DNA from: Nitrospirales bacterium
GTDB lineage: Bacteria; Nitrospirota; Nitrospiria; Nitrospirales; UBA8639
DNA: 39,641 nt
Assembly (NCBI GenBank): GCA_021604365.1
Contig: BQIZ01000011.1
Location: 1-39,641, forward strand
Direction: 5' to 3'
Positions 16,327 through 39,641 of this stretch are shown piece by piece. Under the pieces are notes generated by a model. That model did no database searches. It saw nothing but the letters and a program-made list of their open reading frames with translations, and was not told where the DNA came from. Position numbers and translations under genes: made by a program. The number at the start of each line of letters is the position of its first letter. Position 1 is the stretch's first letter.

Positions 16327-16417
16327 GACATCCTTAAAATTTTCTTTTTTTACACCCAGTTAGCATACGCCTGGGGAACTTAGAACTTTCCAACTATGGA
16401 ACTATGGAACTTTAAAA

Positions 16418-16960: not shown

Positions 16961-16963
16961 TTA

Positions 16964-16992: not shown

Positions 16993-17022
16993 TTTCTATT
17001 GCGTATCCTTCTATACTGAGTT

Positions 17023-17229
17023 TTAGGCTTCTTGAACAGGTTCGTACCAGCCTTCAGCGATGAGCTTTTCAATATATTCCTCTGGAATCCGCACATTGCG
17101 ACCAATGCGCACGAATGGAACTTGTCTTCGGGCAATCGCTTTGCGCCAGGTTGGAACCTTGCGCCCTGTTTTCACTTCGCATTCCGCTAGGCTCAGCAAC
17201 CGGTTACTGGTTTTTAAATTCTTTTCCAT
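17023..17229 (-). CDS. Excisionase-like helix-turn-helix protein, 68 residues
   Basis: A 68-residue protein of the AlpA/excisionase/MerR-like winged-helix class: LLSLAECEVKTGRKVPTWRK is the first helix pair and AIARRQVPFVRIGRNVRIPEEY is the wing and recognition part. VRIGRNVRIPEEYIEKLI is very close to the common ending of element-encoded Xis/AlpA proteins. It probably bends attachment-site DNA or controls the integrase. The start ATG 17229 is chosen because AAGGAGAGGCGG lies directly upstream. A start 16 codons further up has no such signal and would run through the operator. It is divergent from the zinc-finger/integrase operon. Confidence 0.8.
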   Translation of the reverse strand: MEKNLKTSNRLLSLAECEVKTGRKVPTWRKAIARRQVPFVRIGRNVRIPEEYIEKLIAEGWYEPVQEA

Positions 17230-17268
17230 CCGCCTCTCCTTTTGTTGTTGACCCTGATAAGGCCTGAC

Positions 17269-17320
17269 GTGATACACTGAGTATCACTATTTACTAGTAT
17301 TTATACAAAACCAGTAAATA
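17269..17320. promoter_or_regulatory. Two inverted repeats between divergent excisionase and integrase operons
   Basis: GTGATAC-actga-GTATCAC (17269-17287) is a perfect inverted repeat directly followed by TATTTACT (17288-17295) and its inverted copy AGTAAATA (17313-17320). Both lie in the 130-bp AT-rich gap between the divergent starts at 17229 and 17361. They are good candidates for operators of a repressor that controls both operons, possibly the excisionase-like protein. Confidence 0.6.
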
Positions 17321-17360
17321 GAGTAAAGGTAAAATAATAGTGAATGAGGAGAATTTTTAA

Positions 17361-18257: not shown

Positions 18258-18266
18258 GAGGGCGCC

Positions 18267-19382: not shown

Positions 19383-19397
19383 TCTAAGTGCTTGAAA

Positions 19398-19449
19398 GAA
19401 TTGGAGCGGGAAAGGGGATTTGAACCCCCGACCCTCGCCTTGGCAAGGC
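19398..19449. repeat. Right attachment repeat (attR), 52 bp, within tRNA-Gly
   Basis: Identical over 52 bp to 11452-11503. At this end it is continuous with the 5' part of the tRNA, so the tRNA gene stays complete. Confidence 0.9.
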
Positions 19450-19476
19450 GATGCTCTACCACTGAGCTATTCCCGC
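19402..19476 (-). tRNA. tRNA-Gly (anticodon GCC)
   Basis: A 75-nt gene read leftwards. The acceptor stem is GCGGGAA / TTCCCGC, with discriminator T and an encoded CCA. The D-arm is GCTCAGTGGTAGAGC, the anticodon loop CTTGCCAAG with anticodon GCC, and the T-arm GGGGGTTCAAATCCCC. It decodes GGC and GGU glycine codons. Its 3' half is the integration target of the adjacent element, which has rebuilt it so the gene is still functional. Confidence 0.97.
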
Positions 19477-19628: not shown

Positions 19629-20960
19629 ATGTATGTCAGCGTGATAGGAACCGGGTACGTAGGATTGGTCACAGGGGCTTGTTTTGCGGAATTTGGCTTG
19701 AATGTGCTGTGTATGGACACGGATGCCAAACGGATTGCGGCTTTGGAAAAAGGCAAGGTGCCATTCTATGAGCCGGGCCTTTCTGAACTCGTGACCAAAA
19801 ATCTGACGGCCGGGCATCTTCGATTTACCACCGATTTACACAAAGCCGTTGATGAAGCCCTTGTTATTTTTATTGCCGTGGGAACCCCTTCCCGTGAGGA
19901 CGGATCTGCTGATCTGTCCTTTATCGATCAAGTGGCCAAAGATGTGGGAACCCGGATGACGGGATATAAGGTGGTGGTAACGAAATCCACGGTGCCGGTC
20001 GGAACGGCAAAACGCATTCGATCGATTATTCAGGCCAATCAAACAACGGAGTGTAGTTTTGGCGTGGTCTCGAACCCTGAATTCCTTCGGGAAGGATCAG
20101 CAATTGAGGATTTTATGCGGCCCAATCGTGTGGTGATTGGAGCGGACCGTCCGGAATCGGTGGCGATTATGAAAGATTTGTACCGCCCCTTGTATATCCT
20201 TGAAACGCCAATTGTGATTACAAATATTCCAACCGCTGAAATGATCAAATACGCCTCAAACGTCTTTTTGGCCACGAAAATCTCTTTTATTAATGAAATG
20301 GCCAATCTCTGTGAAGGAGTGGGAGCTGATGTGCAAATGGTGGCCAAAGGGATGGGTTTAGACAAACGGATCGGGTCGAAATTTTTGCATGCGGGTCCAG
20401 GGTATGGAGGATCGTGTTTTGGTAAAGATACCGCCGCGTTGATCAACATCGGAAACGAAAATAATTATGAGATGACTATCGCCAAGGCCACCAAACGGGT
20501 GAACGACGACCAGCGGGTCAGGATGATGGAAAAAATTCGAGAAGCGGTAGGGGAGTTGAAAGGGAAAACCATTGCCTTACTCGGGTTAGCCTTTAAACCC
20601 AACACCGACGATATACGGGATTCACCGGCTTTGTATCTCGCAGAGCAGATCATGAAAGCGGGTGGGACCGTGCGGACCTATGATCCGGAGGCTTTGGAGA
20701 TATCGATGAAGGTGTTGCCCACCATGGTCCCCTGTCAGGATGCCTACCACACGATGGAAGGGGCGGATGTCGTGGTGTTGGTCACGGAGTGGAACCAGTT
20801 TAGAAGTTTGGATTTTGACCGGGTTCGTGCCGCAGTAACCTCTCCGATTTTTATTGATCTTCGCAATGTCTATGAACCCCAACGGATGGAAGATCTGGGG
20901 TTTTATTATGTCTCGGTGGGTCGAAAAACCGTCGGAACCCATCCTTCCCAAAAAAGCTAA
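19629..20960 (+). CDS. ugd: UDP-glucose 6-dehydrogenase
   Basis: A 443-residue NAD-dependent enzyme that oxidises UDP-glucose twice to UDP-glucuronate, a precursor for capsule, exopolysaccharide or lipid decoration. The Rossmann motif is GTGYVG (7-12), the acidic binder DTDAKR follows, and the catalytic Cys is C263 in GYGGSCFGKD. K207 is in EMIKYASN and the NAD/UDP domain GLAFKPNTDDIRDSP is C-terminal. The length matches the TuaD/Ugd family. The start ATG 19629 has AAGGAGGA upstream. It stands alone on the plus strand. The HEAT operon ends on the opposite strand 154 bp beyond it. Confidence 0.96.
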   Translation: MYVSVIGTGYVGLVTGACFAEFGLNVLCMDTDAKRIAALEKGKVPFYEPGLSELVTKNLTAGHLRFTTDLHKAVDEALVIFIAVGTPSREDGSADLSFIDQVAKDVGTRMTGYKVVVTKSTVPVGTAKRIRSIIQANQTTECSFGVVSNPEFLREGSAIEDFMRPNRVVIGADRPESVAIMKDLYRPLYILETPIVITNIPTAEMIKYASNVFLATKISFINEMANLCEGVGADVQMVAKGMGLDKRIGSKFLHAGPGYGGSCFGKDTAALINIGNENNYEMTIAKATKRVNDDQRVRMMEKIREAVGELKGKTIALLGLAFKPNTDDIRDSPALYLAEQIMKAGGTVRTYDPEALEISMKVLPTMVPCQDAYHTMEGADVVVLVTEWNQFRSLDFDRVRAAVTSPIFIDLRNVYEPQRMEDLGFYYVSVGRKTVGTHPSQKS

Positions 20961-21114: not shown

Positions 21115-21783
21115 CTATTTCCGTTTATAGCCCATGCGGTCTAACACCTTCATGATGCGTTTTTGAAGTTTTTCATCAGCCTCGCCTAATGCCAGAGCCA
21201 AAGGCTCGACTGCGGGCTTTCCAATCTTTCGAAGAATTTCGGTTGCCGATTGCCGAAGATCGTCTTCTTCGGAAACCAAATATGGAATGACATCAGGGAC
21301 ACAGGGCGCGCCTATTTTGATCAAGGCCTCATAGGCACGCTGTCTGACATCACCGACTTCATCGCTGAGCATTTCTACCAACGGTTTCACGGCTGCTTCT
21401 ACCCGGAGTTCACCGAGCACTTCAATGGCATGCTTGCGATTGAGCCAGTGCGAATCGGTAAGATCTTGCAGGGCAGCATCGGCTCGTTGAATATTGGGGT
21501 CCTTGGAGCGGATCCGAAAACTTTTGACGATTCGTTTGCCGTCTTCTTCAACGACGCGAAGAGTCGCCCCATCACCGATTTTGATCTTTTGGAGGTCTTC
21601 GGCAGCCTCTTCACTGACATCCATTAGAACGGTCTTCCCATCGTATGCCAGGAGTTCGACCTCGATTTGTCTTGCCTCAAGATTGATCGCAGTGACGTTT
21701 TCGGTCACAAGATTAAACCCGTCTTTTTTCGTGCCACTTTTTGGGCCGATTGAAATGAGTTTTGCGGGTGCTTCGTTTGCCAT
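21115..21783 (-). CDS. HEAT-repeat protein with N-terminal small beta domain, 222 residues
   Basis: Residues 1 to about 92 form a compact beta-rich domain (ENVTAINLEARQIEVELLAYD, then KIGDGATLRVVEEDGKRIV) of the type seen in short barrel domains of DUF5666-like proteins, here without a signal peptide. The rest is HEAT repeats of the PBS-lyase type (RAEAL-like units, for example LNRKHAIEVLGELRVEAAVKPL and VRQRAYEALIKIG). It ends in DRMGYKRK, a worn version of the LGW end shared by its relatives. It is the last gene of a four-gene HEAT operon, 49 bp after the previous one, with AAGGA ahead of ATG 21783. It is probably a cytoplasmic scaffold, and the beta domain may be its binding module. Confidence 0.82.
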   Translation of the reverse strand: MANEAPAKLISIGPKSGTKKDGFNLVTENVTAINLEARQIEVELLAYDGKTVLMDVSEEAAEDLQKIKIGDGATLRVVEEDGKRIVKSFRIRSKDPNIQRADAALQDLTDSHWLNRKHAIEVLGELRVEAAVKPLVEMLSDEVGDVRQRAYEALIKIGAPCVPDVIPYLVSEEDDLRQSATEILRKIGKPAVEPLALALGEADEKLQKRIMKVLDRMGYKRK

Positions 21784-21832
21784 GATTGTTCAGTGTCCTT
21801 ATTTGTAGTTAAAAAAACGAAAAGAGCTTTTG

Positions 21833-22606
21833 TTATGATGATTGTGAAGAACCGGGTGTCCATCCCAAACTTGCCAGGGCACCTTCGGCGGTGTCCCGAA
21901 CCATTTCATTTTCATCTTCGAGTAAAGGGACCAGGGGATCGATGGCCCGACTATCCTTAAAACGAGCCAGTGATTCTGCGGCATTACGACGGACCAACCA
22001 GTCTTCATCGGCCAGAGCATGAATTAAGGGATCCAAACTGCGGGGATCGCCAATTTTCCCTAATGCCTCTGCCGCGTGCCGGCGCACAATCCAATTCGAG
22101 GCCTGTAAGCCTTCCACCAGGGCATCAGTTGCGCGGGAATCCCCTAATTTCTTTAACACTCTTGCGGCATCCTCACGGAGGGTCGCGTCCATCAAAGCAT
22201 CTACTAAGGCGGGAACCGCATCAGGATGCCCAATCCGTTCTAACGCCCAAATGGCAGCAGTGCGCACACCTCCATCCTTGTCGTGCCGGAGGGCATGAAC
22301 CAATGGTTCCACCGATTTGATCGCACGGAGTTTCCCGAGAGCGGTCGCTGCCTGTTCCCGAACAGACCATTCCTCATCATCTTTCAAGGACTCAATCAGG
22401 GGATCAACGGCAGATTCCCCAATTTGAACCAAGGCGCTTGTGGCTGCTTCACGAACCACACAGTCGTCCTCCAAGAACATATTGATCAGCTTGGGAATAG
22501 CTTCAGAGCCAGCTTCTCCGAGCCGAGAGGCGGCATGATTCCGAAGGGCTTCATTGTCATCACGAAGCGCCGACAATAAGGGATCTACGTGGTTACCTTC
22601 CGTCAT
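21833..22606 (-). CDS. HEAT-repeat protein, 257 residues
   Basis: Eight near-perfect HEAT units of about 31 residues fill the whole protein (repeating pattern DxxAVxxLixALxDxxWxVRxxAAxALGxiGD). Examples are VDPLIESLKDDEEWSVREQAAT, SVEPLVHALRHDKDGGVRT and SLDPLIHALADEDWLVRRNAA. There is no other domain, signal peptide or catalytic motif. It ends in ALASLGWTPGSSQSS. The start ATG 22606 has AAAGGAG about 9 nt upstream. The gene is 15 bp downstream of the next HEAT gene. Such regular solenoids present a concave surface for binding another protein; the partner is unknown. Confidence 0.88.
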   Translation of the reverse strand: MTEGNHVDPLLSALRDDNEALRNHAASRLGEAGSEAIPKLINMFLEDDCVVREAATSALVQIGESAVDPLIESLKDDEEWSVREQAATALGKLRAIKSVEPLVHALRHDKDGGVRTAAIWALERIGHPDAVPALVDALMDATLREDAARVLKKLGDSRATDALVEGLQASNWIVRRHAAEALGKIGDPRSLDPLIHALADEDWLVRRNAAESLARFKDSRAIDPLVPLLEDENEMVRDTAEGALASLGWTPGSSQSS

Positions 22607-22621
22607 GGGTCAACACTCCTT

Positions 22622-23713
22622 TTATTCCTTTTCGGCCCAGGCTTCTTCATCCATGCTCATTTGTGCAGTGGCAGCCTCGAGTTTGTCAAGGATGACCCCT
22701 GAATTATAGGAAATCAGGCCATCCCGGTCGGTTTTTAATCTGGCAAATAATTCCATATGGGGTCGTAGGACTTCGACTTCTTTCACTTTCTCCAGAGCTT
22801 CGACCGCGAGTATACGAAGGGGGCGAATGGGGATGGATTCAATAAATAACTCAACCGGCCGGGGATCGCCGATGAGTCCAAGGGATTTAAGAGCATGCTC
22901 TTTTACACCCGTATCGCTGTCCGACCGGAGCCGGACCATGAGTGGTTCCACCGCTCGAATATCGCCAATTTTGCCAAGAGTGTCTGCTGCGGCTTCCCGA
23001 ACGATCCAATCATCGTCCTCCAGGTATTCAATAAGAATTTCAACGATTGGGCGGCCAATACGATGCAGTTGGATGACCGCTTCCTGCCGCACGCCTTCTT
23101 TTAACTCGGATTCGTCCACCGCCCGCAGGTGGTCCATCGTTTGATCGACGCGGTCCCGAATCGCACCTAATTTGCGCAAGGTATCGGTGGCCAGGTCACG
23201 AAGATCGGGGTCGGACATGGCATCAATAAACCCATCTGCCGATCGAGGATCAAGGAGGTGAGCGAGGATCTCTGCGGCCCGGAGGCGGATGGCTGGATCG
23301 GGATCCTTGAGCCGTTCGGACAGAGGACCGATAGAGGTGGGAATCACACCCAGGAGTGCCGTGACCTTTTCCTGGAGTGTATCGTCGCGTAAATGCTCTA
23401 AGAGTGCAGCCGCGGTGGCTTCATCCAAAATGCCAGCCATATGCTCTAAGGCATCCACGGCCGCCTGTCTCACCTGTTCATCTTCATCCTTCAGGACGTG
23501 AGCGAGGGCCTGGCCGGCTCGGGGATCCCGTAGGCGGGCCAACATTTTTGCGGCTTCGACCTTATAGTGAGTAGACCCGGTCGCCATAGCTTGAATAATG
23601 GCTTCGACGGCCTTGGGTCCCCCCTTCATGCAGGTCGAGGTGGCACGCATTCGGCGCCAATCTTCCTCGTGATCCAGTTCCGAGATGATGGTTTCGAAAG
23701 TTTCTTTCGGCAT
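22622..23713 (-). CDS. HEAT-repeat protein, 363 residues
   Basis: Mostly HEAT units (for example YKVEAAKMLARLRDPRAGQAL and WIVREAAADTLGKIGDIRAV), but less regular than its neighbours. A break around residues 100-185 (EATAAALLEHLRDDTLQEKV, then LRDLATDTLRKLGAIRDRVD) suggests a hinge. The C-terminal section (VEVLRPHMELFARLKTDRDG, then VILDKLEAATAQMSMDEEAW) is acidic and lacks the LGWxP end of its relatives. The start ATG 23713 has only a weak binding site, so translation may depend on the upstream gene, 15 bp away. Probably a cytoplasmic scaffold or adaptor. Confidence 0.85.
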   Translation of the reverse strand: MPKETFETIISELDHEEDWRRMRATSTCMKGGPKAVEAIIQAMATGSTHYKVEAAKMLARLRDPRAGQALAHVLKDEDEQVRQAAVDALEHMAGILDEATAAALLEHLRDDTLQEKVTALLGVIPTSIGPLSERLKDPDPAIRLRAAEILAHLLDPRSADGFIDAMSDPDLRDLATDTLRKLGAIRDRVDQTMDHLRAVDESELKEGVRQEAVIQLHRIGRPIVEILIEYLEDDDWIVREAAADTLGKIGDIRAVEPLMVRLRSDSDTGVKEHALKSLGLIGDPRPVELFIESIPIRPLRILAVEALEKVKEVEVLRPHMELFARLKTDRDGLISYNSGVILDKLEAATAQMSMDEEAWAEKE

Positions 23714-23728
23714 CGTCAGGTCTTTCGG

Positions 23729-24856
23729 TTAGATGCGTATCTGTCCCGGCCGCCAGCCGAGGTGCGAAAGGGATTCCAACACATGACGACGGAGATTGTC
23801 ATTTTTAGTTGTTTTTAAGAGATTTAACAGCGGGTTCACGGCTTTTGGGCCAAACTGCGTCAGGGCTTCGGCAGCTTCTGTCCGCAGGAGCGTACTTTGC
23901 AGCGCGTGTATTAGAGCGGGAATAGCCTGTGGGTCGCGAATCTTCCCCAAGGCTCTGATGGCAGCTTCCAGGGGAGGAAGGTCTTCTTTATATTGAGGGT
24001 CGGTGCATCCTTCCTGGCGATCTTCGTAGGTTTCCTTGGGTAGCGAGTTGACTAAAGCGATTAACATGGGAATGGCTTCGGTGGATCGGATCTGGCCAAG
24101 TGCTTCAATCGAGGGCAATTTGAGCGAAGGTGTTTCGAGGGCAAGGGACGAGAGTAAAAGAGGAATGGCGCGGGGATCGCCGATCTGTCCGAGTGCTCGA
24201 ACGGCGTCTTGGCGTACGGCAGTATCGGAATCTTCGAGCACCAGAATCATCAAATGTCCTACCGCTTCCAGGGGCTTCAAAAGAGCCAACGCTTCCACCG
24301 CACGCAACCGGATTTTCCAGTTTTCATCCTTTAATTTTTCCAATAATTTTGGAATGCTGGTGTTGCCGATGGCTTGAATGGCCCGTCCTGCTTCCTCTCG
24401 CACGGCCGGCACTTTATCCTGTAGAAGCAAAATCAACGTATCAATGGCTTGAGGGTTCTGGATGCGACTGAGGCCTTTGGCTGCCGACATTCGCACAATC
24501 CAGTTAGGACTTAATGCCGCGGACAACAAGGGATCTAAGACTTGTTCGTTGGCGATATCAGCTAAAATGCACGCAGCCGATTCCTGGACTTGAAGATTTG
24601 CATCCTGAAGGCAAAACCCTAACGAGAGAATGGCCGGTTCCCCAAGCGCTTTTAGTGCTGAGGTTGCAGCTTCCCGCACGGCCCGATCCGAGTCACGAAG
24701 CGCCCGAATCAATGGTTGAACGCTACGGGGATCGCCAAGACGTCCGAGGGCTACCGCTGCGTCTTCGCGCACCCCCCAATCCTCGTCGTCAAGCGCAGAT
24801 ATATGTTCAGCGACGGAGTCAACCATGTCTGTGCCAAGTAGTGGAATATAGACCAC
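23729..24856 (-). CDS. HEAT-repeat protein, 375 residues, first gene of the HEAT operon
   Basis: About eleven HEAT units, very regular at the N-terminus (DEDWGVREDAAVALGRLGDP). Around residues 275-300 a polar insert, SLPKETYEDRQEGCTDPQYK, interrupts one unit and holds a Cys. The end is LSHLGWRPGQIRI. No catalytic residues are visible. GTG 24856 has TAGGGAAA at suitable distance; an ATG ten codons in (24826) fits the first repeat equally well. It is the most upstream of the four HEAT genes and may share its promoter with the small helical gene at 24965-25330, 108 bp upstream. Confidence 0.84.
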   Translation of the reverse strand: MVYIPLLGTDMVDSVAEHISALDDEDWGVREDAAVALGRLGDPRSVQPLIRALRDSDRAVREAATSALKALGEPAILSLGFCLQDANLQVQESAACILADIANEQVLDPLLSAALSPNWIVRMSAAKGLSRIQNPQAIDTLILLLQDKVPAVREEAGRAIQAIGNTSIPKLLEKLKDENWKIRLRAVEALALLKPLEAVGHLMILVLEDSDTAVRQDAVRALGQIGDPRAIPLLLSSLALETPSLKLPSIEALGQIRSTEAIPMLIALVNSLPKETYEDRQEGCTDPQYKEDLPPLEAAIRALGKIRDPQAIPALIHALQSTLLRTEAAEALTQFGPKAVNPLLNLLKTTKNDNLRRHVLESLSHLGWRPGQIRI

Positions 24857-24964
24857 GCCCGTTTCCCTACCATTAGGGAAAACCCGAAAGTCGACGTTAC
24901 CACACGATTTTTTGAGGGGTCAATGAGGGGGAAGAGAGGTTGCCTGTGCGGGCGGTTGAATACC

Positions 24965-25330
24965 CTATACCGACCGAAACACCGCTAAGAGGTCGCTCAA
25001 CGCTAACATTTTTATTCTCAGAACCTCATGCTCGTGGTGCAGGTTGTCTTTAATGGCCTGATCGTTCGGGGATTTCAAAAATTGTTCACACAGAGTTGTG
25101 ATTCGTTGAAATTCGGTCTCCGCCTTGTTTTTGACTACCCGGTTTGTCGCGAGAAGTTCCGTCACCTGGGTGTGAGTCTCGGCCAGGTGCTTTTGAAACT
25201 CTCCTTCCGGCAGTGAGCGCTTAGTGGCCTCATCCAGACATCGGTCAATGTATTGGGAGAGAAGGACATAAAATCTCACTAAGGTTTCGGTGGTGGTGAT
25301 ATGTGGGAGGGGCGTCTCAAGGTCAGTCAT
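24965..25330 (-). CDS. All-helical protein of unknown function, 121 residues
   Basis: No family is certain. The whole sequence predicts as long helices (LVRFYVLLSQYIDRCLDEATK, FQKHLAETHTQVTELLAT, KAETEFQRITTLCEQFL, HEVLRIKMLALSDLLAVF), a four-helix bundle or coiled coil like small export-chaperone or adaptor proteins such as FlgN or FliT, which it resembles only in design. The start ATG 25330 has GAAAGGAA 8 nt upstream and is preferred over one 11 codons further up. It is located upstream of, and in the same direction as, the HEAT operon, so it may belong functionally to it. Confidence 0.62.
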   Translation of the reverse strand: MTDLETPLPHITTTETLVRFYVLLSQYIDRCLDEATKRSLPEGEFQKHLAETHTQVTELLATNRVVKNKAETEFQRITTLCEQFLKSPNDQAIKDNLHHEHEVLRIKMLALSDLLAVFRSV

Positions 25331-25863
25331 GATCGTTCCTTTCGGGTTCTGCCGTATACTCAAGTCAAGTAGGGAATCATTGGCCTCCTTCAGGGAGGCC
25401 TTCTATCGCCATTCTGGCAATAAAGATGAAATGGCGCAAGTCCGGAATGAGAAGTGCTTGGATCATTCAGATTTTAAATCTCTGGCCTTCCAGATTTACG
25501 ATGTGGATCGGGAATCCATCTTGAGAATTTCCTGTAAAAAGCGCTGGCTTGAGAATGCATTGCATTTGTGTCCCCAACTCTTGTGTCAAACGTGATTTTC
25601 TATGTTGCCGTTTTTTGCCACGACAGTTGAAGGATTTGAGGAAGGAGATAGGTGAGGGTGATGAAGACAAAAACAAATGGAAAGGCAGCCTGGTTGGCGT
25701 CAGCCGGGCGCGATAAAATGGCGTTCCTGGCTCCCTTTGGGTTTTCTGGGTGTGCGTCCTCTAATAGGGCGAAAGCTCCCGCAATGAGCTGGGATTCACG
25801 ATGATGGTTCACCATCATGAAATGTGCGGTTGTTCGTGGGCATTTTGACTGATCTTCCCGTGG
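25331..25863. other. Gene-poor stretch with a BCCT gene fossil
   Basis: About 530 bp without a confident gene. The only recognisable content is the BCCT 3'-end fossil at 25617-25692. Frames here are short, start without good binding sites and match nothing I know. Confidence 0.55.
25617..25692 (-). pseudogene. Fossil 3' end of a second BCCT transporter gene
   Basis: This stretch aligns with the last 75 bp of the intact BCCT gene (26438-26514) over its whole length, about three bases in four identical with one indel. Both share AAGGATTTGAG near the stop and GGAAAGGCAGCC at the far end. In translation the fossil keeps AAFPFVFV exactly and then a hydrophobic helix. The homology stops abruptly at about 25692, beyond which the sequence is unrelated. 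It is the remnant of a duplicated or older transporter gene. Confidence 0.75.
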
Positions 25864-26313
25864 TTATCCTTTCCCAACATCAATGAATATTTCTGCCTCG
25901 GTTATGGTGTTGCCTGAATAGCGGTTCGTCATGACTTTCAGGCAGTTGTCCTCTAAAAACACATTAATGCCAAATGGCCGAAGGTTGCATTTCGTAATTT
26001 CGGCGTTTTCCCCGCTAATTTCTTTGACTTCCAGAACAATCTCGTCGGCAAAGGCGACTTCGATCTTCTTTCCCAAGGCAATGACGGTAATCACATCAAG
26101 CAAAGATGAATTTTTACTCACGATTGGACGCCATTCCTTCCCCTGTTGATCGGCAGGAATGGTCACCCATATCTCAGGAGTTTCTCCTCTTCCAATTAAA
26201 ACCGGAATAAATCCATTGACTGATACTAATGCCACACCATCGATCAGTTTATTCGTCGCAATCTCTAACTGCTTGTAAGGCCTAAAATCTATTGGAAGCG
26301 AGTCTAACTTCAT
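25864..26313 (-). CDS. Unknown protein, 149 residues
   Basis: No family is recognised. The start is well supported (AGAGAGGAATCA before ATG 26313). The product is beta-rich and reads like two similar halves: GVALVSVNGFIPVLIGRGETPEIWV in the first, and LRPFGINVFLEDNCLKVMTNRYSGNTITEAEIFIDV in the second. No signal peptide or membrane helix is seen. It lies between the BCCT fossil and the intact BCCT gene in the same direction, separated from the latter by about 120 bp. Confidence 0.65.
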   Translation of the reverse strand: MKLDSLPIDFRPYKQLEIATNKLIDGVALVSVNGFIPVLIGRGETPEIWVTIPADQQGKEWRPIVSKNSSLLDVITVIALGKKIEVAFADEIVLEVKEISGENAEITKCNLRPFGINVFLEDNCLKVMTNRYSGNTITEAEIFIDVGKG

Positions 26314-26435
26314 TGATTCCTCTCTAATATTTCTGTGACAGGTATATTTTTATGGGATTGAAGAAGCTAGCAGTAATAGCGATTTTTTTTGATCAAATCA
26401 ACCATTGAGAGATTGTGTCCTTTGTCGCACCAGGC

Positions 26436-27923
26436 CTACCTGGTTTCCTCCTGAAAGGATTTGAGAAGAGAGATGATGAGGATGATGATGACGAAGACAA
26501 ACGGAAAGGCAGCCAGGATGGCCCCGGTTTGCAGGCCTTTAAGTCCGCCTGACCAAAGAAGGATGGCTGCCGATAGGGATTGAATGATGCCCCAGGTGAA
26601 TTTGATCCGATTGGGGGGATTGAGGCTGCCATTCGTGGTTAAGGTTCCCAAAACGAAAGTAGCGGAATCCGCTGAGGTGATGAAAAAGGTGCCGATCAAG
26701 AAAATGGCGATGAGCGACATGACCGTGCCCATTGGATATTGCTCCAAAACCGTAAAGAGCAAAACCTCGATTCCCTGCTTTTCCATAACGGTTTTCAAGG
26801 ACACGTCCTGAAAGAGTTCTAATCCGATCCCGGTTCCTCCAAACACCGTAAACCAAAATGCACAAAAGATTGACGGAACAAGCAATACGCCCAACACAAA
26901 TTGTCGAACCGTCCGGCCTTTGGAAATTCTGGCAATAAAGGTTCCCACAAAGGGCGCCCAGGCGATCCACCATGCCCAATAAAACAACGTCCAGTTGTGA
27001 ATCCAGGTTGAATCTCGAAATGGTGCGAGGTTCAGGCTCATCGTCGGAAGGTTTTGGATGTAGTTTCCGAAGGTCGAGGGAAACACGGTCATGATGAAGT
27101 GCGTTGGGCCGAGAAACAGCAAGAACGACAAGAGAGTCAGCGCCAGCACCATGTTCAGATTACTAAGGTATTTGATGCCTCGTTGGAGTCCGGTTTGAGC
27201 GGAGAGCATAAAGAGCACGGTGACAGTGGCGATGACGGCCAATTGAGTGGTGAGGGTGTTGGGCAGGGCAAACACATAGGATAATCCTCCGCTGATCTGT
27301 ACGGCTCCAAATCCAAGGGAGGTTGCTACGCCAAAGACCGTGGCAAAAACAGCGACCACATCTACCGCAGTTCCCATCGGCCCGGTGGCATGTCTTCCCA
27401 AAACCGGCTGGCATCCTGCACTAAATAGCCCTGGAGTGCCTTTTCGAAACTGAAAGTAGGCGAGGGCCATGCCCACCATGGTGTAGATGCCCCAGGGGTG
27501 TAGGCCCCAATGGAAAAAAGAGTATTGCAGCGCCAGGCGTGCGGCTTGGGGCGTTCCTCCTTCGTCGATGGGGGGATCATGGAAATGGGATATGGGTTCC
27601 GCCACGCCCCAAAACACCAGACCGATGCCCATGCCTGCGCAAAACAGCATGGCAAACCAGGTGAGGAGAGGAAATTCAGGTTTGGCCCCATCGGGCCCAA
27701 GTGGAATATCACCCCATCGGGAAAAAATCAGACAGAACGCGCAAATAAGAAAACCGGTTGCCGCCAGGACATATAACCAGCCAAACGAATCAAGAAGGGC
27801 CGTTTGGAAAGTCCAGGTGATTTTTGCTAAATGTATCGGGGCTAAGGCACCCCAAAGCAGAAAGAGAAAGGCGAGGGCGCAGGAGATATTGAAGACAAGA
27901 GTGGTAGATTTCAGTGGGTTCAT
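26436..27923 (-). CDS. BCCT family betaine/carnitine/choline transporter
   Basis: A 495-residue carrier with about 12 membrane helices. Family signatures are GMGIGLVFWGVAEPISHF in the early part, a late FYWAWWIAWAPFVGTFIARISKGRTVRQF, and the helix GVATSLGFGAVQISGG. BCCT proteins (BetP, OpuD, BetT) import glycine betaine and related quaternary amines with sodium or proton. It is neighbour to a betaine-synthesis gene, so betaine is the likely substrate. The start is uncertain: ATG 27923 (MNPLKSTTLVFNIS) begins just before the first helix; starts further upstream add up to 32 polar residues and lack a clear ribosome-binding site. Confidence 0.9.
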   Translation of the reverse strand: MNPLKSTTLVFNISCALAFLFLLWGALAPIHLAKITWTFQTALLDSFGWLYVLAATGFLICAFCLIFSRWGDIPLGPDGAKPEFPLLTWFAMLFCAGMGIGLVFWGVAEPISHFHDPPIDEGGTPQAARLALQYSFFHWGLHPWGIYTMVGMALAYFQFRKGTPGLFSAGCQPVLGRHATGPMGTAVDVVAVFATVFGVATSLGFGAVQISGGLSYVFALPNTLTTQLAVIATVTVLFMLSAQTGLQRGIKYLSNLNMVLALTLLSFLLFLGPTHFIMTVFPSTFGNYIQNLPTMSLNLAPFRDSTWIHNWTLFYWAWWIAWAPFVGTFIARISKGRTVRQFVLGVLLVPSIFCAFWFTVFGGTGIGLELFQDVSLKTVMEKQGIEVLLFTVLEQYPMGTVMSLIAIFLIGTFFITSADSATFVLGTLTTNGSLNPPNRIKFTWGIIQSLSAAILLWSGGLKGLQTGAILAAFPFVFVIIILIISLLKSFQEETR

Positions 27924-28394
27924 GGGGCAATAGAATTGAATGGGAAGGCTAGGCCTTACCATAATTGGCATTGTTGAACAAGGAAACCTCGGTTTATGCC
28001 AAACCGAAAAGAATGGCAAGGAGTAGGCAAATTTTGTTTAGGTGGCGGTAAATTAGCTTTTTTTCGTCCTGAGATTTTAAGACTATCGACTGAATTTGAC
28101 ATTTGGGAGTTGATGAAGGAATGAGAACATAATCAAAAGGGGGTTGCGAAGATGGGCCTAACGAGTTAGATTGAGAATCTCACACACAACAGTGGGGCCT
28201 TTCTTACCCGTGTAGGAGAAGTGCGGAGCCCGATTTTATTTCTGGTCCATAGAGACAGAATATCGTTTTGCCCTTGCGGGTTTTGTCAATTGAATACTGT
28301 AATGAAATGTGTAAATCGCAAGCCTTTACTTAACCTTGTACCCATCATTCTCAAACAGTGGTGAGGGCGGTAGCCATCCAGGAGGTTTCCCCTA
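27924..28394. other. Divergent control region of the two betaine genes
   Basis: About 470 bp between the divergent BCCT and methyltransferase starts, no gene. It should contain both promoters. No hexamer pair is convincing, and no riboswitch-type fold is recognised. The methyltransferase end carries GGAGGTTTCCCC as its ribosome-binding site. Confidence 0.5.
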
Positions 28395-30077
28395 ATGACT
28401 CAGAAAGCGACGACGCCAGTAAGTAAGCAAATATATGGGGATAATCCCATTGCCCAACGAAAAACGGATTTGTACAAACAGGAGTATGTTCATAGTTTTG
28501 TGCAAAAATGGGACGCCTTGATTGATTGGGATGCTCGGGCCTCGAGTGAAGGAGACTTTTTTATCAGGATTTTGAAGGAACGGGGCGTCAAACGCGTATT
28601 GGATGTCGCGACGGGAACGGGATTCCATTCTATTCGGCTCATGCGTGCAGGGTTCGAAGTGACGAGTGCGGACGGCAGTCCTGAAATGTTAGCACAGGCA
28701 TTTGAAAATGCCAGACGAGCTGGGTTTATTATGCGAACGATTCATGCTGATTGGCGCTGGTTGAGCCGGGATATACACAATAAATACGATGCGGTGATTT
28801 GCCTGGGGAACTCTCTGACTCATCTCTTTTCGGAGCAGGATCGGCGAAAAGCCTTGGCCGAATTTTACACCGCGCTGAAGCACGATGGGGTGCTGGTTCT
28901 GGACCAAAGAAATTATGATGGAATTTTAGATAATGGGTTTACCTCGAAGCATGTATATTACTATTGCGGAGACAATGTGAGTGCAGAGCCGGAACATGTT
29001 GATGAAGGGCTTGCCAGATTCAAATATACTTTTCCCGATGGCGAAGCGTTTCATTTGAATATGTTTCCGCTTCGGAAAGAATATACACGTCGGCTCATGA
29101 ATGAGGTTGGCTTTCAGCAAGTAAAAACCTATGCGGATTTTCAAGAAACGCATAAAGTTGAGGACCCCGATTTTTATGTCCATGTGGCTGAGAAACTCTA
29201 TAAAAATGAGGAACGCTCCCCCACGATCATGGGCAAGATTGGCAATCTGAATTATTCCCCCACCGTGGATACGGCTCGATCCTATTACAACAGTTCGGAT
29301 GCTGACCGGTTTTATGCCACGATCTGGGGCGGCGAAGATATCCACATTGGATTGTACGCATCCGACAACGACTCGATTTTCGATGCCAGCCGACGAACCG
29401 TGGAGAAAATGGCGGCTTCTGTCAAAGATCTTGATTCAACGACACGGGTATTGGATATTGGGTCGGGGTACGGAGGTTCCGCGCGTCATCTTGTGAGACG
29501 ATATGGATGTCAGGTTGGATGCCTGAATTTGAGTGAAGTCCAAAATAAGCGGAATAGAGAACTCAATCAGAAGGAGCATATTAGCTTAGCCATTAATGTC
29601 ATTGACGGGAATTTTGAGTCGATTCCTATGCCGGATGGGAGTGTGGATCTTGTGTGGTCGCAGGATGCCATTTTACATAGCGGAGATCGGGAGAAAGTTT
29701 TCCAGGAGGTCCACCGGGTGTTGGCTAAGGGCGGACAATTTATTTTTACCGACCCGATGAAAAGTGCAACCTGTTCTCCCGATGTGCTTCAACCCATTTT
29801 AGATCGTATTCATTTGGATTCACTGGGATCAATTGAATACTATCGGAACTTGGCTGCCCAACTTGGGTTCAAAGAAGTTGGGGTTGAGGATCTTTCGGCG
29901 AATCTTGCAGCACATTACGAGCGAGTGCTTCAGGAACTTACCACCCAACATCATGTGCTCATTCGGGTTTGTACGGAGGATTATCTGGCTAATATGAAGG
30001 TGGGCCTCCAGCATTGGGTAGAGGCTGGGAAAAGTGGCCACCTCAGCTGGGGAATTTTGCATTTCCGGCGAAACTAA
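28395..30077 (+). CDS. Fused glycine/sarcosine and sarcosine/dimethylglycine N-methyltransferase (betaine synthesis)
   Basis: A 560-residue bifunctional enzyme that makes glycine betaine from glycine by three S-adenosylmethionine-dependent methylations. The N-terminal half (about 1-270) matches glycine sarcosine methyltransferase, with motif I VLDVATGTGFHSIRL (68-82) and the ending EDPDFYVHVAEKLY. The C-terminal half (about 285-560) matches sarcosine dimethylglycine methyltransferase, with motif I VLDIGSGYGGSARHL and HSGDREKVFQEVHRVL. Separate enzymes occur in Ectothiorhodospira halochloris and a fusion in Actinopolyspora halophila. The start ATG 28395 has GGAGG 9 nt upstream. It converges on the HEAT gene at 30137. 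It indicates osmoprotection by de novo betaine. Confidence 0.9.
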   Translation: MTQKATTPVSKQIYGDNPIAQRKTDLYKQEYVHSFVQKWDALIDWDARASSEGDFFIRILKERGVKRVLDVATGTGFHSIRLMRAGFEVTSADGSPEMLAQAFENARRAGFIMRTIHADWRWLSRDIHNKYDAVICLGNSLTHLFSEQDRRKALAEFYTALKHDGVLVLDQRNYDGILDNGFTSKHVYYYCGDNVSAEPEHVDEGLARFKYTFPDGEAFHLNMFPLRKEYTRRLMNEVGFQQVKTYADFQETHKVEDPDFYVHVAEKLYKNEERSPTIMGKIGNLNYSPTVDTARSYYNSSDADRFYATIWGGEDIHIGLYASDNDSIFDASRRTVEKMAASVKDLDSTTRVLDIGSGYGGSARHLVRRYGCQVGCLNLSEVQNKRNRELNQKEHISLAINVIDGNFESIPMPDGSVDLVWSQDAILHSGDREKVFQEVHRVLAKGGQFIFTDPMKSATCSPDVLQPILDRIHLDSLGSIEYYRNLAAQLGFKEVGVEDLSANLAAHYERVLQELTTQHHVLIRVCTEDYLANMKVGLQHWVEAGKSGHLSWGILHFRRN

Positions 30078-30136
30078 TTGATGAAGGGACATCCGTCAGG
30101 AGCCTCGTCACATTCCGACACGGGAATTGGAGTATA

Positions 30137-31525
30137 TTACCGTTCGATTTTAGGTGGTTTAGCTGGCATGGCAAAGTCCCCGCTCTTGCCAAAGCGGCCC
30201 TCTCCTCCCTCACCTAATACATTGGAAGTATCGGTATATTCAATATCTCTGGTTTCTTTGCTTATGCCTTCTGTTGGTTTCCACCCGAGTTTATCCAGGG
30301 TATCTAGGATCGTTTTCTTGAGAGCACCTCCTGCCGTCATTCGAGAAGTAGCAAACGCCAAAACTCTTTCGCTTTCTTGCTGGACCTTAGATAAATCCGG
30401 GTCATGGAAGAACCAGACCAGGGGCTCAATGGCCGCATCTCCAATCAACACCAAGGAATTGGCGGCATAATCACGAAGGACTAGGTCTTTGAGTAACAGC
30501 ACTAAATCCGGAATGACTTTGGGATGTCGAAAATGACCTAGGGCTGTGGCAGCCGCTTCTTTAATTAAGAGGTCTTCGCTGATAATACAGCCAGGGGTCG
30601 GCTTCCCCTCCTGATGTATGCCCTTACCTTTTAAGGCGTCCAGGACGGGAGGGTAGGCGCGAGGATCCCCGATCATGCCTAGGGAAGCGATTGCATGCCG
30701 TTTAACTGTCCCATCTTTCATGGCTTCCATGAGGGCATCCACTGCACGGGCATCTCCAATATTGCCCAAGGCGATTGTGGCATCTTCGCGAACGGCTCGG
30801 TCAGGGTCCTTTACCATATCGATCAAGGCATCGACGACACGTGGTTCACGTACCCACACCCGTCCCATTTGGTAATCCGTGGTCATGCCTCCTAGCGCTC
30901 GAACGGCGTGACAGCGCACAACGAAATGGGGGTCTTTGAGGGACTCCAGAAGCGCATCGACTGATTCTTTTCCAATGTACATCAATGCGGTTCCGGCGGT
31001 TTCCCGCACGATCTTGGACGTATCTTTAAATAATTTAATTAGGGTTGGAATGGCTTTGGGGTCTCCAATTTTTCCTAATGCCTCGGCTGCAGCACTCTTG
31101 ACTGCACCATCTCGGTCACGGCACACCAGGCTCAAGCCTTGGACGGCCTGAGAATCACGCAATTCGCCTAAAGTTTTCGCGGCTTGTTCGCGGACCCGCC
31201 ACCGTTTGTCTTTCAAGCAAGTCAGTAATTGCGGAATGACGCTTTTTCCCATGGAGGTCATGGCATTTACTGCTTCAGCTTGTACTTCCATCATATTGTC
31301 ATTGAAAAGCGTAATGAGACCTTCAACGGCTTTTTCCCCGCCAATTTTTGCCAAAGCCCACCCGAGATGAGATCGAACCGACCAATAGTCATCTTCGAGG
31401 GCGTTCAGAAGGGGTTCTAGCGTCTTCGGGTCACCCTTTTCCGCAAGGGCCTTGGCCGCTTCCTCCCGGGTGGCATCATCGGCATCTTCCAGGGCATCAA
31501 TCCAGTCTTGCACAGAATTCGACAT
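30137..31525 (-). CDS. HEAT-repeat protein, 462 residues
   Basis: About thirteen HEAT units fill residues 1-400 (for example SVQDWIDALEDADDATREEA, TLEPLLNALEDDYWSVRSHL, VDALIDMVKDPDRAVREDAT). A polar insert HQEGKPTPGCIISEDLL with a single Cys breaks one unit near residue 310, matching an insert in the 375-residue protein of the other operon. The end has LDKLGWKPTEG, then a 40-residue polar tail rich in Gly and Pro (GEGGEGRFGKSGDFAMPAKP). ATG 31525 has GAAGGAA upstream. It is the last gene of an operon with an exported protein (24 bp upstream) and a degenerate phosphatase-fold protein. Probably a cytoplasmic scaffold. Confidence 0.88.
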   Translation of the reverse strand: MSNSVQDWIDALEDADDATREEAAKALAEKGDPKTLEPLLNALEDDYWSVRSHLGWALAKIGGEKAVEGLITLFNDNMMEVQAEAVNAMTSMGKSVIPQLLTCLKDKRWRVREQAAKTLGELRDSQAVQGLSLVCRDRDGAVKSAAAEALGKIGDPKAIPTLIKLFKDTSKIVRETAGTALMYIGKESVDALLESLKDPHFVVRCHAVRALGGMTTDYQMGRVWVREPRVVDALIDMVKDPDRAVREDATIALGNIGDARAVDALMEAMKDGTVKRHAIASLGMIGDPRAYPPVLDALKGKGIHQEGKPTPGCIISEDLLIKEAAATALGHFRHPKVIPDLVLLLKDLVLRDYAANSLVLIGDAAIEPLVWFFHDPDLSKVQQESERVLAFATSRMTAGGALKKTILDTLDKLGWKPTEGISKETRDIEYTDTSNVLGEGGEGRFGKSGDFAMPAKPPKIER

Positions 31526-31549: not shown

Positions 31550-31996
31550 TTACTTCGGGTAGTCCGGTTCTTGGGGATAGGGTTGCGTATGGCTACAACG
31601 AATTGTCAGGACTTGTGTTCCTCGTCCGTCTACACATTGATCAAGTGTTGGAGAGAATTCCAAGGTTCCGGATAAGGTCACCTTGAATAAGAAATCAAAC
31701 GTAAAAGTCCCAAAACGATATTCTCCAGGCTTGAGGTTCAGTGTCCTGGTCTCGGATGTTTTGTAGGCGTCACTACTAATGGGATCTTTTGTCCAAATCA
31801 ACGGGGTCATGCCGGGTACGTGCCACCATGTCGGAGGGGCAAGGGCGCTCGGATTCACGGTAATGGGAAATTGTCGCAACAAAGGGTTGTTAGTGTCTGC
31901 GGTGTGTCCGAGTTGAACAAGCAGAGGAGAAATACCCATGAGAAACAGGCAGAAAATGATAAATGTGAATTGACGCGGAAAATGTATTCGAATCAT
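31550..31996 (-). CDS. Exported protein of unknown function, 148 residues
   Basis: A signal peptide (about residues 1-33, IHFPRQFTFIIFCLFLMGIS then LVQLGHTADT) is followed by a beta-rich mature part of about 115 residues: TWWHVPGMTPLIW, RTLNLKPGEYRFGTFTFDFLFKV and a two-Cys loop LDQCVDGRGTQVLTIRC. The pattern LKPGEYRFGTFTFDF is like a small beta-sandwich. The start ATG 31996 lies 4 bp after the stop of the phosphatase-fold gene and begins the signal peptide directly; an ATG nine codons earlier (32023) overlaps that gene. No family is recognised. The three-gene operon suggests a link with the phosphatase-fold protein. Confidence 0.65.
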   Translation of the reverse strand: MIRIHFPRQFTFIIFCLFLMGISPLLVQLGHTADTNNPLLRQFPITVNPSALAPPTWWHVPGMTPLIWTKDPISSDAYKTSETRTLNLKPGEYRFGTFTFDFLFKVTLSGTLEFSPTLDQCVDGRGTQVLTIRCSHTQPYPQEPDYPK

Positions 31997-32000
31997 GGTT

Positions 32001-33056
32001 TTAATGTTTGTTTTGTAGTTCATTGCCGGTGGTTCGTCGTTCTGGAACGGTTTGGAAAATTTCACCAATAGCGTGGCTGTCCCATTCTGTATACGTTTCA
32101 AGTCCGAGGGCGTACATAATGGTCGCTCCCGTATCTAACAAAGAGACTGATTGGGTGATGGGGTGATTTTTCTTAATATTTGCGCCCCAGGCAATCCAGG
32201 GGATAGTGGCATCTAACTCAGGGGAAGAAGGACTGCTAGAGACTGGCTTGACGCCTCCTGCTGGGGAGGAAAGAGGCCCGCTATTCAAGCCAGTAACAAT
32301 CACCATGGTTTTTTCCAATACCCCAAGTTCTTTATACGTTTGGATGATTTGTTCCACAGTAGTATCGATTGCCATTAGGGCATCGGAGTATTTTTCGGAA
32401 TCCCACCCGTATTTTTCCCCGACCTTAACCGCCGTAGGCAGGTGGACTAATAAGAGGTTTGGCACTCCAAAAAGCCGGAAGCCATAGCCTTTCTCACTGG
32501 TGACTTTTTTTAAAAAGTCTTTGATGTATGCCGACGCTCTCTCAGGAGTGCATTGGGGTTTGGTGTAGCCACAGACTTGGGAATCGACGTAAATTTCAGG
32601 TCGAACCAATTGATAGAGGCGTTCATCCATAAGAAAGACGCCTGTGTCTTTTCCGCCAGCCAGATCCATGTAATCAAAGACCGTGGGTGAACGCATAAAT
32701 GAACGTGCAAAATCGTATGTTTCCCATTCGGCGGTCACCCGATGCTTCTCGACCTGAAGTCCGGTGAGCAGAGAGGCCATCGCCGGAACAGTGAGAGGTG
32801 GGGCAATGGAGTGAGCGGACCAGGTCGCAACTCCCTCCTTAGCTAAACGAGCCAGGTTTGGAGTTGCACCGCTTTGTATGGATGTTGATTTGACCCCTTC
32901 CAATACGACTAGAATGATGTATTCGGCTTGTGTGGCAGAAGCAACCGAAGCTGTTCCTCCGATTAGCGGAAGGCAGACCAAACTCCATGCGAGGAAAAAA
33001 CACCGCATGCGTTTACCACGACGATGTTGGGGGGGAGGTATTTGGGAAGTGCTCAT
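32001..33056 (-). CDS. Exported alkaline-phosphatase-fold protein with lost metal ligands
   Basis: A 351-residue protein with a signal peptide (CFFLAWSLVCLPLIGGTASV) and the type I phosphodiesterase / nucleotide pyrophosphatase fold: PPLTVPAMASLLTG contains the usual nucleophile Thr, IPWIAWGANIKKNHPI and LLDTGATIMYALGLETYTEWD are conserved structural parts. Metal-ligand positions are altered: the opening VLDG is VLEG, the PDxxGHxxG segment reads LPTAVKVGEKYGW, and the SDHG segment reads TGLNSG. It therefore probably binds but does not hydrolyse phosphate esters. It is the first gene of the operon with an exported protein and a HEAT protein. The start ATG 33056 has a modest binding site. Confidence 0.78.
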   Translation of the reverse strand: MSTSQIPPPQHRRGKRMRCFFLAWSLVCLPLIGGTASVASATQAEYIILVVLEGVKSTSIQSGATPNLARLAKEGVATWSAHSIAPPLTVPAMASLLTGLQVEKHRVTAEWETYDFARSFMRSPTVFDYMDLAGGKDTGVFLMDERLYQLVRPEIYVDSQVCGYTKPQCTPERASAYIKDFLKKVTSEKGYGFRLFGVPNLLLVHLPTAVKVGEKYGWDSEKYSDALMAIDTTVEQIIQTYKELGVLEKTMVIVTGLNSGPLSSPAGGVKPVSSSPSSPELDATIPWIAWGANIKKNHPITQSVSLLDTGATIMYALGLETYTEWDSHAIGEIFQTVPERRTTGNELQNKH

Positions 33057-33291: not shown

Positions 33292-34593
33292 ATGCACTCA
33301 CAGAACAGATGGTTCCCGATGCCTCACGAAAATAATTTCCAACATGCCAATTATTCAAAGTCGGACCCTGGCGCACGGGTGGGTTATCGAACATTTCAGC
33401 CTGGAGCGGCTCCAGATTCTCCTGAGTGGGGCCAGGCCATGGCTGGCGTTGGCGAACACATGGCCCAATCCCGAGTGAAGGGGGTACTTTTTCTCCAGGG
33501 TCTTCCCTTCATGGATCTCTTTGGAGCTGCCAGGTTAGATGAGGTTGGAGGTTTAAAACGAGGGTATTCACGGGGAATATCTGGCTTAGAATCGTTACTG
33601 GCTCTCTTGCGCCCTGCTACAAACGGTATTTGTCTCCCAGGAGATCCCCTCAACCCTCCTGTGTCAGACGATGAAGCAACACACAAAAGGTTGGATGTGC
33701 TCGCTCAGGAAATTGGAAATTTTTCTTCGTCGTATGTACGGAATTTTGAACTCGCCCTGACTCCGGCGAGCGAGAAATCTATTCCTTGTGGTCGCTACGT
33801 TTGGTCCTCGGTTAATCATCATGTTGGCCGAGTCGAAGCCGCCTTACACCTTTTGATATATCTTCAAAAATGGGGCTCTGGTCTTGACTTAACAAGTGAT
33901 GACCGGCTTCTTCTCGTCGGTCATGGGCATGCCGGTCAGGTCTTGGCTTTATTGTCGAATATTCTCACCAAAGGGGAATCAGAGGTCAGGGGGCGCGTTT
34001 TTGAAATTCTGGCTAAATATTGGCAGTCGTGCCCTTCAGCGGATCGGTCCGTAGCCCAACTCGAACGTATGTATGGTCTTGTGATGGATCAAGCGGCGTT
34101 AAATGGAGCAACGGTCGATATTGTCACGCTTGGGACACCGGTTCGCTATGGTTGGGATATCGATGGGGTTGGTCATTTGCTTCATTTTGTGAATCACCGT
34201 GAAATTCGAACGGATGGCAAGCGTTGGTTGGCTAAAATGGAATTACCTCAAATTGCGTGGGAAGTGCCCTATCAAACTGGAGGTGATTACGTTCAGCAAT
34301 TGGCTGTAGCTGGAACGGACATGGTTCCGAATAAACCTGAGGCCGAGCAGGCCAATGTTGATTTCCGGGAAATTTTTGAACCCTTTGACGGCTTTGAACG
34401 GTGGCTGGAGTGTACTCGGCGTGCGACACGATGTGCCAATGACGGACAGTGTTTGTTGGTGGAATATGGGGTGCAAGCGGAGGAGTCTCCTCGACAACAT
34501 TTATTCGGCCATGCATGCTATACCCATAGCCGTGCCATGCTATTTCTGACGACTGAGATCGCACGGGCATTTTATTCACAGAAAAATAGTTGA
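33292..34593 (+). CDS. Lipase-like alpha/beta-hydrolase-fold protein lacking the nucleophile Ser, 433 residues
   Basis: The segment LLLVGHGHAGQVLALLSNIL (about residues 205-224) is in the place and context of the nucleophile elbow, normally GHSxGG, but has Gly where Ser is needed. TVDIVTLGTPVRYGWDIDGVG follows at the distance where lipases have LGTPHxG, and LLHFVNHREIRTDG comes later. The rest is not recognised. There is no clear signal peptide; the first 45 residues are polar and low in order. The start ATG 33292 has no good binding site, so the start is uncertain. It is divergent from the phosphatase-fold operon across about 235 bp. Possibly a catalytically dead binding protein. Confidence 0.6.
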   Translation: MHSQNRWFPMPHENNFQHANYSKSDPGARVGYRTFQPGAAPDSPEWGQAMAGVGEHMAQSRVKGVLFLQGLPFMDLFGAARLDEVGGLKRGYSRGISGLESLLALLRPATNGICLPGDPLNPPVSDDEATHKRLDVLAQEIGNFSSSYVRNFELALTPASEKSIPCGRYVWSSVNHHVGRVEAALHLLIYLQKWGSGLDLTSDDRLLLVGHGHAGQVLALLSNILTKGESEVRGRVFEILAKYWQSCPSADRSVAQLERMYGLVMDQAALNGATVDIVTLGTPVRYGWDIDGVGHLLHFVNHREIRTDGKRWLAKMELPQIAWEVPYQTGGDYVQQLAVAGTDMVPNKPEAEQANVDFREIFEPFDGFERWLECTRRATRCANDGQCLLVEYGVQAEESPRQHLFGHACYTHSRAMLFLTTEIARAFYSQKNS

Positions 34594-39482: not shown

Positions 39483-39641
39483 ATGTTTCTTTCTAGACGG
39501 CAATTCTTGAAAGTTTCTGCAGGGACTGTGGCTGCAGTCGCACTGGCCGATAAGGCGCTGGCCTTAACGGCGTTACAGCCAGTCATTGAAGTCGGAAATC
39601 CTCTCGGCGAATATCCTGACCGTTCCTGGGAGCGGGTCTAC
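39483..39641 (+). CDS. nxrA: Nitrite oxidoreductase alpha subunit, N-terminus (cut by the right edge)
   Basis: Only 53 residues are visible. MFLSRRQFLKVSAGTVAAVA is a perfect twin-arginine signal (SRRQFLK) with a hydrophobic stretch, followed by ALALTALQPVIEVGNPLGEY and PDRSWERVY. The region resembles, from memory, the start of Nitrospira NxrA, the molybdopterin subunit of periplasm-facing nitrite oxidoreductase. Another DMSO-reductase-family oxidoreductase is possible. The start ATG 39483 has TTAGGAGGTGTAAGC directly upstream. Confidence 0.68.
   Translation, partial: MFLSRRQFLKVSAGTVAAVALADKALALTALQPVIEVGNPLGEYPDRSWERVY

Follow-up and report, generated by a model that had tools for sequence, protein, structure and literature searches.

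Why would a bacterium keep five genes for HEAT-repeat proteins in one locus? The question is raised by contig BQIZ01000011.1 of a draft genome of the order Nitrospirales (GenBank assembly GCA_021604365.1; 4.02 Mb, 92.75% complete), whose 39,641 nucleotides were analyzed as a whole and are called the window here. On its reverse strand lie the genes for H1 (21115..21783, 222 aa), H2 (21833..22606, 257 aa), H3 (22622..23713, 363 aa), H4 (23729..24856, 375 aa from a GTG codon), and H5 (30137..31525, 462 aa), 1,679 aa in total, with the places and lengths that an initial annotation, made from the sequence alone, had given them. We lean, with moderate confidence, toward reading them as a clade-specific set of cytoplasmic, non-catalytic, protein-binding scaffolds that are most likely parts of one multi-subunit assembly.

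All five proteins belong to the HEAT superfamily (Pfam HEAT_2/HEAT_PBS), with HEAT_2 matches over the curated cut-off (E-values of 8e-15 for H1, 1e-52 for H2, 7e-40 for H3, 3e-57 for H4, and 6e-78 for H5), and a Pfam scan of the set reported no catalytic domain, as had been proposed. The description of the five as nearly pure HEAT proteins needs amending for H1, in which the HEAT match starts only at about residue 103. In the structural model of this protein (mean predicted local distance difference test score 82.7), residues 23-93 form a small beta-barrel and residues 96-216 four helix pairs, the HEAT units. The barrel resembles CusF in fold only: CusF (1zeq) came at rank 50 in the Foldseek list for H1 (E 2.3e-4, 15% identity), and, as CusF binds copper through His, Trp, and Met ligands and no invariant His, Trp, or Met was found in residues 22-93 of H1, copper binding by the barrel is not suggested and H1 does not qualify as a CusF copper chaperone. 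H4 may in fact start ten codons downstream of its GTG, at an internal ATG near 24826 that would give ~365 aa; the ortholog in the related genome G009 was read as 365 aa, yet that in G013 as 375 aa.

H5, like H1, was modeled as a solenoid of helix pairs, here of about twelve units, followed by 44 low-confidence residues (419-462). Its neighbors in Foldseek are binder solenoids, namely alphaRep binders, PP2A subunit A, beta-catenin, and importin alpha. The last three resemble H5 as groove-binding solenoids (E ~1e-7), but the likeness to such eukaryotic HEAT/ARM scaffolds is one of solenoid shape, at 11-17% identity, and no shared ancestry is claimed. Polar residues of H5 have a mean conservation of 0.84 in the B helices (74 positions) vs 0.66 in the outer A helices (70 positions); the B helices line the groove in the usual HEAT geometry, from which, rather than from the coordinates of H5, their groove-side placement is taken.

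H3 served as the marker gene for distribution counts. Orthologs were searched in 78 relatives (57 of good quality) and in a second sample of 395 Nitrospirota genomes, 143 from the same order and 252 others; families are labeled f1 to f4. At ortholog strength, H3 was found in 137 of the 143 genomes of the order (f1 26/27, f2 3/3, f3 108/110, f4 0/3) and in 69 of the 78 relatives (54 of the 57 good-quality ones), each of these 69 carrying a single true copy. The 252 other Nitrospirota genomes gave nine weak, non-orthologous matches (best 1.6e-35), the six with rows shown being frames of 526-761 aa. H5 is present as a single full-length copy in each of 10 genomes, and in four f4 genomes its matches reached no more than 6e-17 to 4e-24. 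Of 27 outside genomes, 19 had matches to the H1 profile at E <= 1e-6; because each match starts at profile position 69 or later, the whole barrel is not matched there. Among the named matches are Candidatus Nitrospira defluvii (FP929003) and numerous metagenome-assembled genomes of Nitrospira and Nitrospirales. H3 is kept in genomes of 1.7-2.0 Mb (G219, G353, G215, G054, G042, and G045), and in two of these, G054 (locus L047) and G045 (L093), all five HEAT genes were read. Two loci, L085 and L091, come from records titled Nitrospinaceae and Nitrospinota; their H3 has 85% and 69% identity, their genes are arranged as in f1, and both are probably mislabeled bins.

The six genomes of the order without H3 are the three from f4 plus G299, G362, and G037. 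In G299 a contig ends within the block, with H5, H4, and the initial 35 residues of H3 on it; G362 has the initial 52 residues of H5. Among the 78 relatives, the nine misses fall in f1 (G001, G003, G028, G034, G037) and f4 (G050, G053, G056, G059); G003, G028, and G034 have H5, and G001 gave no strong match.

Absence from most relatives, or an unrelated neighborhood around each gene, had been named beforehand as grounds for abandoning the idea of a common machine. Neither applies: across three families the genes are present and keep a conserved order, and the idea survives this check. The locus map covers 113 loci with 103 distinct H3 proteins (33 loci plus 80 named ones, some genomes being in both); the named ones are the best 80 of 187 matching stretches encoding a relative, and in these 80 H3 is followed by H2. 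In f1 and f3, the recurrent order is W33-PDE-SEC-H5-[insert]-H4-H3-H2-H1-UGD, where UGD (19629..20960, forward strand) is a UDP-glucose 6-dehydrogenase, SEC (31550..32023, reverse) a small protein whose hydrophobic N terminus is signal-like, PDE (32001..33056, reverse) a protein of the phosphodiesterase/alkaline-phosphatase superfamily, and W33 (33292..34593, forward) a divergently oriented neighbor. Six f2 loci read H4-H5-H3-H2-H1-UGD, with the five HEAT genes together and PDE, SEC, and W33 lacking. Counted over distinct loci with enough DNA, H1 was found in 97/97, H2 in 97/97, H4 in 95/95, UGD in 85/86, H5 in 68/74, and PDE in 62/74.

Spacing was counted over all 113 loci, near-duplicates included, with gaps outside -200 to 15,000 omitted. 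The H3-H2 gap is at most 100 bp in 110 of 111 loci and the H2-H1 gap in 100 of 109, while H4-H3 gaps are looser (at most 100 bp in 43/48 f1 and 37/55 f3 loci) and H5-H4 gaps are that short in 0/27 f1 and 12/52 f3 loci. In the window, the H4-H3, H3-H2, and H2-H1 gaps are 15, 15, and 49 bases, so H4-H3-H2-H1 is probably one operon, with H1 as its last gene; together with PDE-SEC-H5, this layout agrees with the two operons already proposed. A small open reading frame upstream of H4 (24965..25363, reverse), with matches in G009 (91%), G007 (67%), and G027 (64%), is possibly the first gene of the H4-H1 operon in the window genome.

A tree of 70 H1-H5 proteins and six other HEAT proteins of the window genome placed H1, H2, H3, and H5 each in one group. 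Because the short H1 rows join inside it, H4 requires two changes and came out as one group in 27% of the bootstrap trees. The six other HEAT proteins fall outside the H1-H5 ortholog groups on long, unsure branches, and HEAT_2 matches occur on eight other contigs of the genome. A second adjacent pair of HEAT genes (L068 8708-11051; 374 and 368 aa) was also seen in this genome, its two members joined in the tree outside H1-H5. In H2, H3, H4, and H5 alike, the rows of f1 and f3 together stand apart from those of f2, as they do in the rpoB tree, from which it follows that the five-gene set predates the divergence of these families; the rpoB tree has f1+f2+f3 as a clade with f4 as sister (support 96/95). 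The ratios of nonsynonymous to synonymous substitution rates (dN/dS), obtained from a single genome pair, the window genome and G009, are 0.039 (H1), 0.024 (H2), 0.052 (H3), 0.050 (H4), and 0.026 (H5), compared with 0.068 for UGD, 0.080 for the methyltransferase between the two operons, and 0.152 for PDE; the BCCT transporter gene of L058, with 20 codons, was dropped, as were the rows of L059, in which dS was saturated or not computable. Purifying selection on the five HEAT genes is strong, at least as strong as on UGD in the pair compared. H1-H5 are five distinct old paralogues, vertically inherited and of fixed lengths, and their recurrence side by side in three families with low dN/dS makes the block more than chance.

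As length, spacing, and neighborhood are all fixed, one assembly is the most likely explanation, and the step to a common multi-protein assembly of H1-H5 is a plausible one. The proteins, in which no signal-like N terminus was seen, would reside in the cytoplasm, where each HEAT groove would hold a stretch of a partner protein. H1 might cap or anchor the assembly through its extra beta-barrel, and PDE-SEC would be an envelope module to which H5, among the five, is tied and with which it moves as a unit.

Several observations weigh against a single assembly. Six loci, all from f1 (five of group g4, one of g2), lack H5 (L053, L054, L055, L094, L097, and L099). Their genomes (G022, G035, G020, G029, G046, and G032) do carry the gene, which in four of them lies just past the fetched stretch; it is ~839 kb from H3 in G029, however, and on another contig in G020. 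The five genes therefore need not be co-transcribed, and H5, being separable, may be a peripheral or envelope-linked member. Genome G037, 95% complete, gave no H2, H3, or H5 at ortholog strength, and G028 (assembly 78% complete) gave H5 with no H2 or H3 match of that strength. Finally, rate covariation of H1-H5 with UGD, PDE, and SEC over 51 loci lent no support (residual correlations -0.39 to 0.24).

The genes around the HEAT block have peculiarities of their own. The start of SEC was set by eye from its orthologs within a longer listed frame (31550-32101). In PDE, compared with solved phosphodiesterases, the D of the DG motif is replaced by E, as in 13 of 13 orthologs covering that position, and no DH pair remains near residue 258; presuming that these positions are metal ligands, PDE is probably a pseudoenzyme. 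W33 (433 aa, no Pfam match), found beside PDE in f1 and f3, reads by eye GHGHAG at the place of a possible lipase-type GxSxG elbow, and its f3 copy (L031) reads AHGQAG, with no Ser in either; if this reading is right, two degraded-looking enzymes adjoin the HEAT genes. Past UGD, the f3 locus L031 (13507-19706) has a run of genes for CBS, ferredoxin, DUF192, Rieske, chagasin-like, and class IV aminotransferase proteins, several of which have counterparts in f2 loci.

In the window, the slot between H5 and H4 holds a BCCT osmolyte transporter (26436..28019, reverse) and a fused glycine-sarcosine/sarcosine-dimethylglycine methyltransferase for betaine synthesis (28395..30077, forward), insertions seen in f1 loci only and lying outside the system. 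Elsewhere, the slot holds a weak, below-cut-off YNCE beta-propeller match (two f3 loci) or ABC-transporter genes (the g4 locus L053). An integrated element of ~7.9 kb (11452-19449) is bounded by identical 52-base direct repeats (11452-11503 and 19398-19449), the second of which overlaps a tRNA-Gly (19402-19476). Its cargo comprises genes for a phage-type integrase (18267-19382), SLFN_AlbA_2, SocA/Panacea, and a ClpP-like protease, and short GGGA..AAAACCGGGA-type repeats lie inside it near both ends (11625-11672 and 19327-19362).

The presence of nxrA nearby, remarked upon in the initial annotation, was borne out by the last 159 bases of the window (39483..39641, forward), which encode the first 53 codons of the gene before the contig ends. 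This fragment, a twin-arginine (Tat) signal plus ...NPLGEYPDRSWERVY, matches the N-terminal end of NxrA in relatives (1,139-1,167 aa) and lies 15.8 kb from H3. TIGR03479 was over cut-off in 0 of the 78 genomes and is a poor marker for this NxrA, for which reason the NxrA of N. defluvii (G065) was taken as query; at most two candidates were scored per genome, and distances refer to the nearest listed nxrA. Matches, some of them fragments, were obtained in 122 of the 143 genomes of the order (f1 24/27, f2 3/3, f3 95/110, f4 0/3); gaps in the assemblies may account for the misses in f1 and f3. Weaker matches came from 16 of the 252 other Nitrospirota genomes. Eight f1 genomes (G002, G007, G009, G013, G015, G018, G023, and G024) have the nxrA core ~15-19 kb from H3, and three f3 genomes (G203, G209, and G240) have it 36-38 kb away, whereas it is more remote in G326 (105 kb), in G353 (185 kb), and in G029, G031, G035, G065, and G073 (0.28-0.95 Mb). 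Linkage of nxrA to the block is lineage-specific and confined to some genera. A transcript study of N. moscoviensis proposes that a putative TorD-like chaperone may help to assemble nitrite oxidoreductase (NXR), and the passages of the Nitrospina genome paper on the NXR-linked set kept in Nitrospira, Nitrospina, and Kuenenia list NXR subunits, a TorD-like chaperone, cytochromes c, a zinc-finger protein, cupredoxin-like proteins, and a bd-like oxidase, and name no HEAT proteins (PMC6606698, PMC3578206).

How do other explanations of the block fare? The five proteins could be separate scaffolds with different clients that merely descend from a common ancestral operon, which would suit the separability of H5, the deep divergence of the five, and the lack of a covariation signal; given the tight spacing and fixed neighborhood across three families, we find this unlikely. 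The role of a dedicated biogenesis machine for NXR or the NXR-linked respiratory chain, in which the HEAT proteins would retain apo-NxrA/B or partner subunits in the cytoplasm until their export by Tat, also strikes us as rather improbable. The block and the N. defluvii-type NxrA do occur in the same three families, and neither was found in the three genomes of f4, outside the supported f1+f2+f3 clade, and nxrA is close to H3 in the eleven f1 and f3 genomes above and in the window. Yet any innovation of that clade would give the same pattern; sharing a branch amounts to a single event and is therefore weak evidence for an NXR link. Moreover, nxrA is remote from H3 in seven genomes, and NXR already has its putative TorD-like chaperone, with no HEAT protein named in the published parts on the conserved NXR gene set. 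NXR assembly as the role of the block is thus weakly supported. The block could also be the cytoplasmic half of an envelope or surface-polymer system, in which H5 would work with PDE and SEC and UGD would supply UDP-glucuronate. PDE and SEC stand upstream of H5 in 7 of the 7 g4 loci examined, including the relocated copy of G029, and UGD is convergent with H1 in all 104 loci where both were read. In addition, a GRFGxSGD motif in the H5 tail (window 30137-30271) is conserved in the aligned f1 and f3 rows and missing from the five f2 H5 sequences read; f2 also lacks PDE and SEC at the locus. On the other hand, f2 keeps all five HEAT genes without PDE or SEC nearby in 6/6 loci, the block has no glycosyltransferase, and the neighborhood shared by f2 and f3 continues beyond UGD with unrelated genes, so that UGD could be just a passive neighbor; on balance, an envelope role is doubtful.

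Two further explanations carry far less weight. That the proteins are enzymes or parts of one, for instance bilin lyases or iron-dependent HEAT hydroxylases, could be suggested by the profile matches to solved CpcE/F and deoxyhypusine hydroxylase and by weak NCBIfam matches to CpcE, CpcF, and NblB, but the scores stay far under the family cut-offs (best CpcE 121 bits of 330, CpcF 89.1 of 220, NblB 101.9 of 300), and the HEAT family TIGR02270 reached 52.5 bits at best, against a cut-off of 206.8. HEAT enzymes of the deoxyhypusine hydroxylase type carry His-Glu metal motifs in their repeats; in the H5 alignment, inspected by eye, the invariant His residues H206 and H277 precede Ala or Gly rather than Glu, and we hold an enzymatic role to be very improbable. 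Osmolyte-related or mobile and defense genes are scarcely credible. Although the BCCT and betaine synthesis genes sit between the two operons, neither f2 nor f3 showed them at the locus, and the osmolyte link was rejected on this ground. A mobile or defense origin could be seen in the integrated element, which ends 1.7 kb from H1, and in matches to PADLOC HEAT models; it is disfavored, as the element is absent at the corresponding place in G009, the HEAT trees follow the species tree, and the PADLOC matches are generic, H1-H5 matching HEAT stretches of longer models.

The favored assembly of five scaffolds can be set beside known HEAT systems. CpcE/CpcF and NblB, which are solenoids acting on a specific client, share the HEAT unit type of the block, but the block differs from them in its low family scores, its five members, its lack of a phycobiliprotein context, and its phylum. 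If NXR were the client, TorD/NarJ chaperones would be functional analogues, as cytoplasmic non-catalytic helpers, although no TorD/NarJ-type Pfam match was obtained for H1-H5 at E <= 0.001 and NXR is already credited with a chaperone of that kind. Mad23, a HEAT-containing bacterial magnetosome protein, is discussed as mediating protein interactions (PMC12748827, PMC9840458). It is likened to the block by description only, and it differs in being one protein, in also having a coiled coil, and in belonging to magnetotactic bacteria. A literature search on Nitrospira, NXR, and bacterial and cyanobacterial HEAT proteins, with most subscription papers and supplements outside its reach, found nothing on the block.

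Nitrospira-type bacteria are major nitrite oxidizers in nature and in water treatment, and that a block built from a known kind of protein should be near-universal in their clade is surprising. We regard as quite doubtful the bolder idea that a five-solenoid assembly machine originated together with NxrA-bearing Nitrospirales and that it serves to build, hold, or regulate the nitrite-oxidation apparatus (NXR or its electron-transfer partners) beyond what the TorD-like chaperone does. The block nonetheless offers five defined proteins to express and pull down, and, as almost all sampled members of three families have it, the set makes a good candidate for a core component of the nitrite-oxidizer lifestyle that has gone unstudied.

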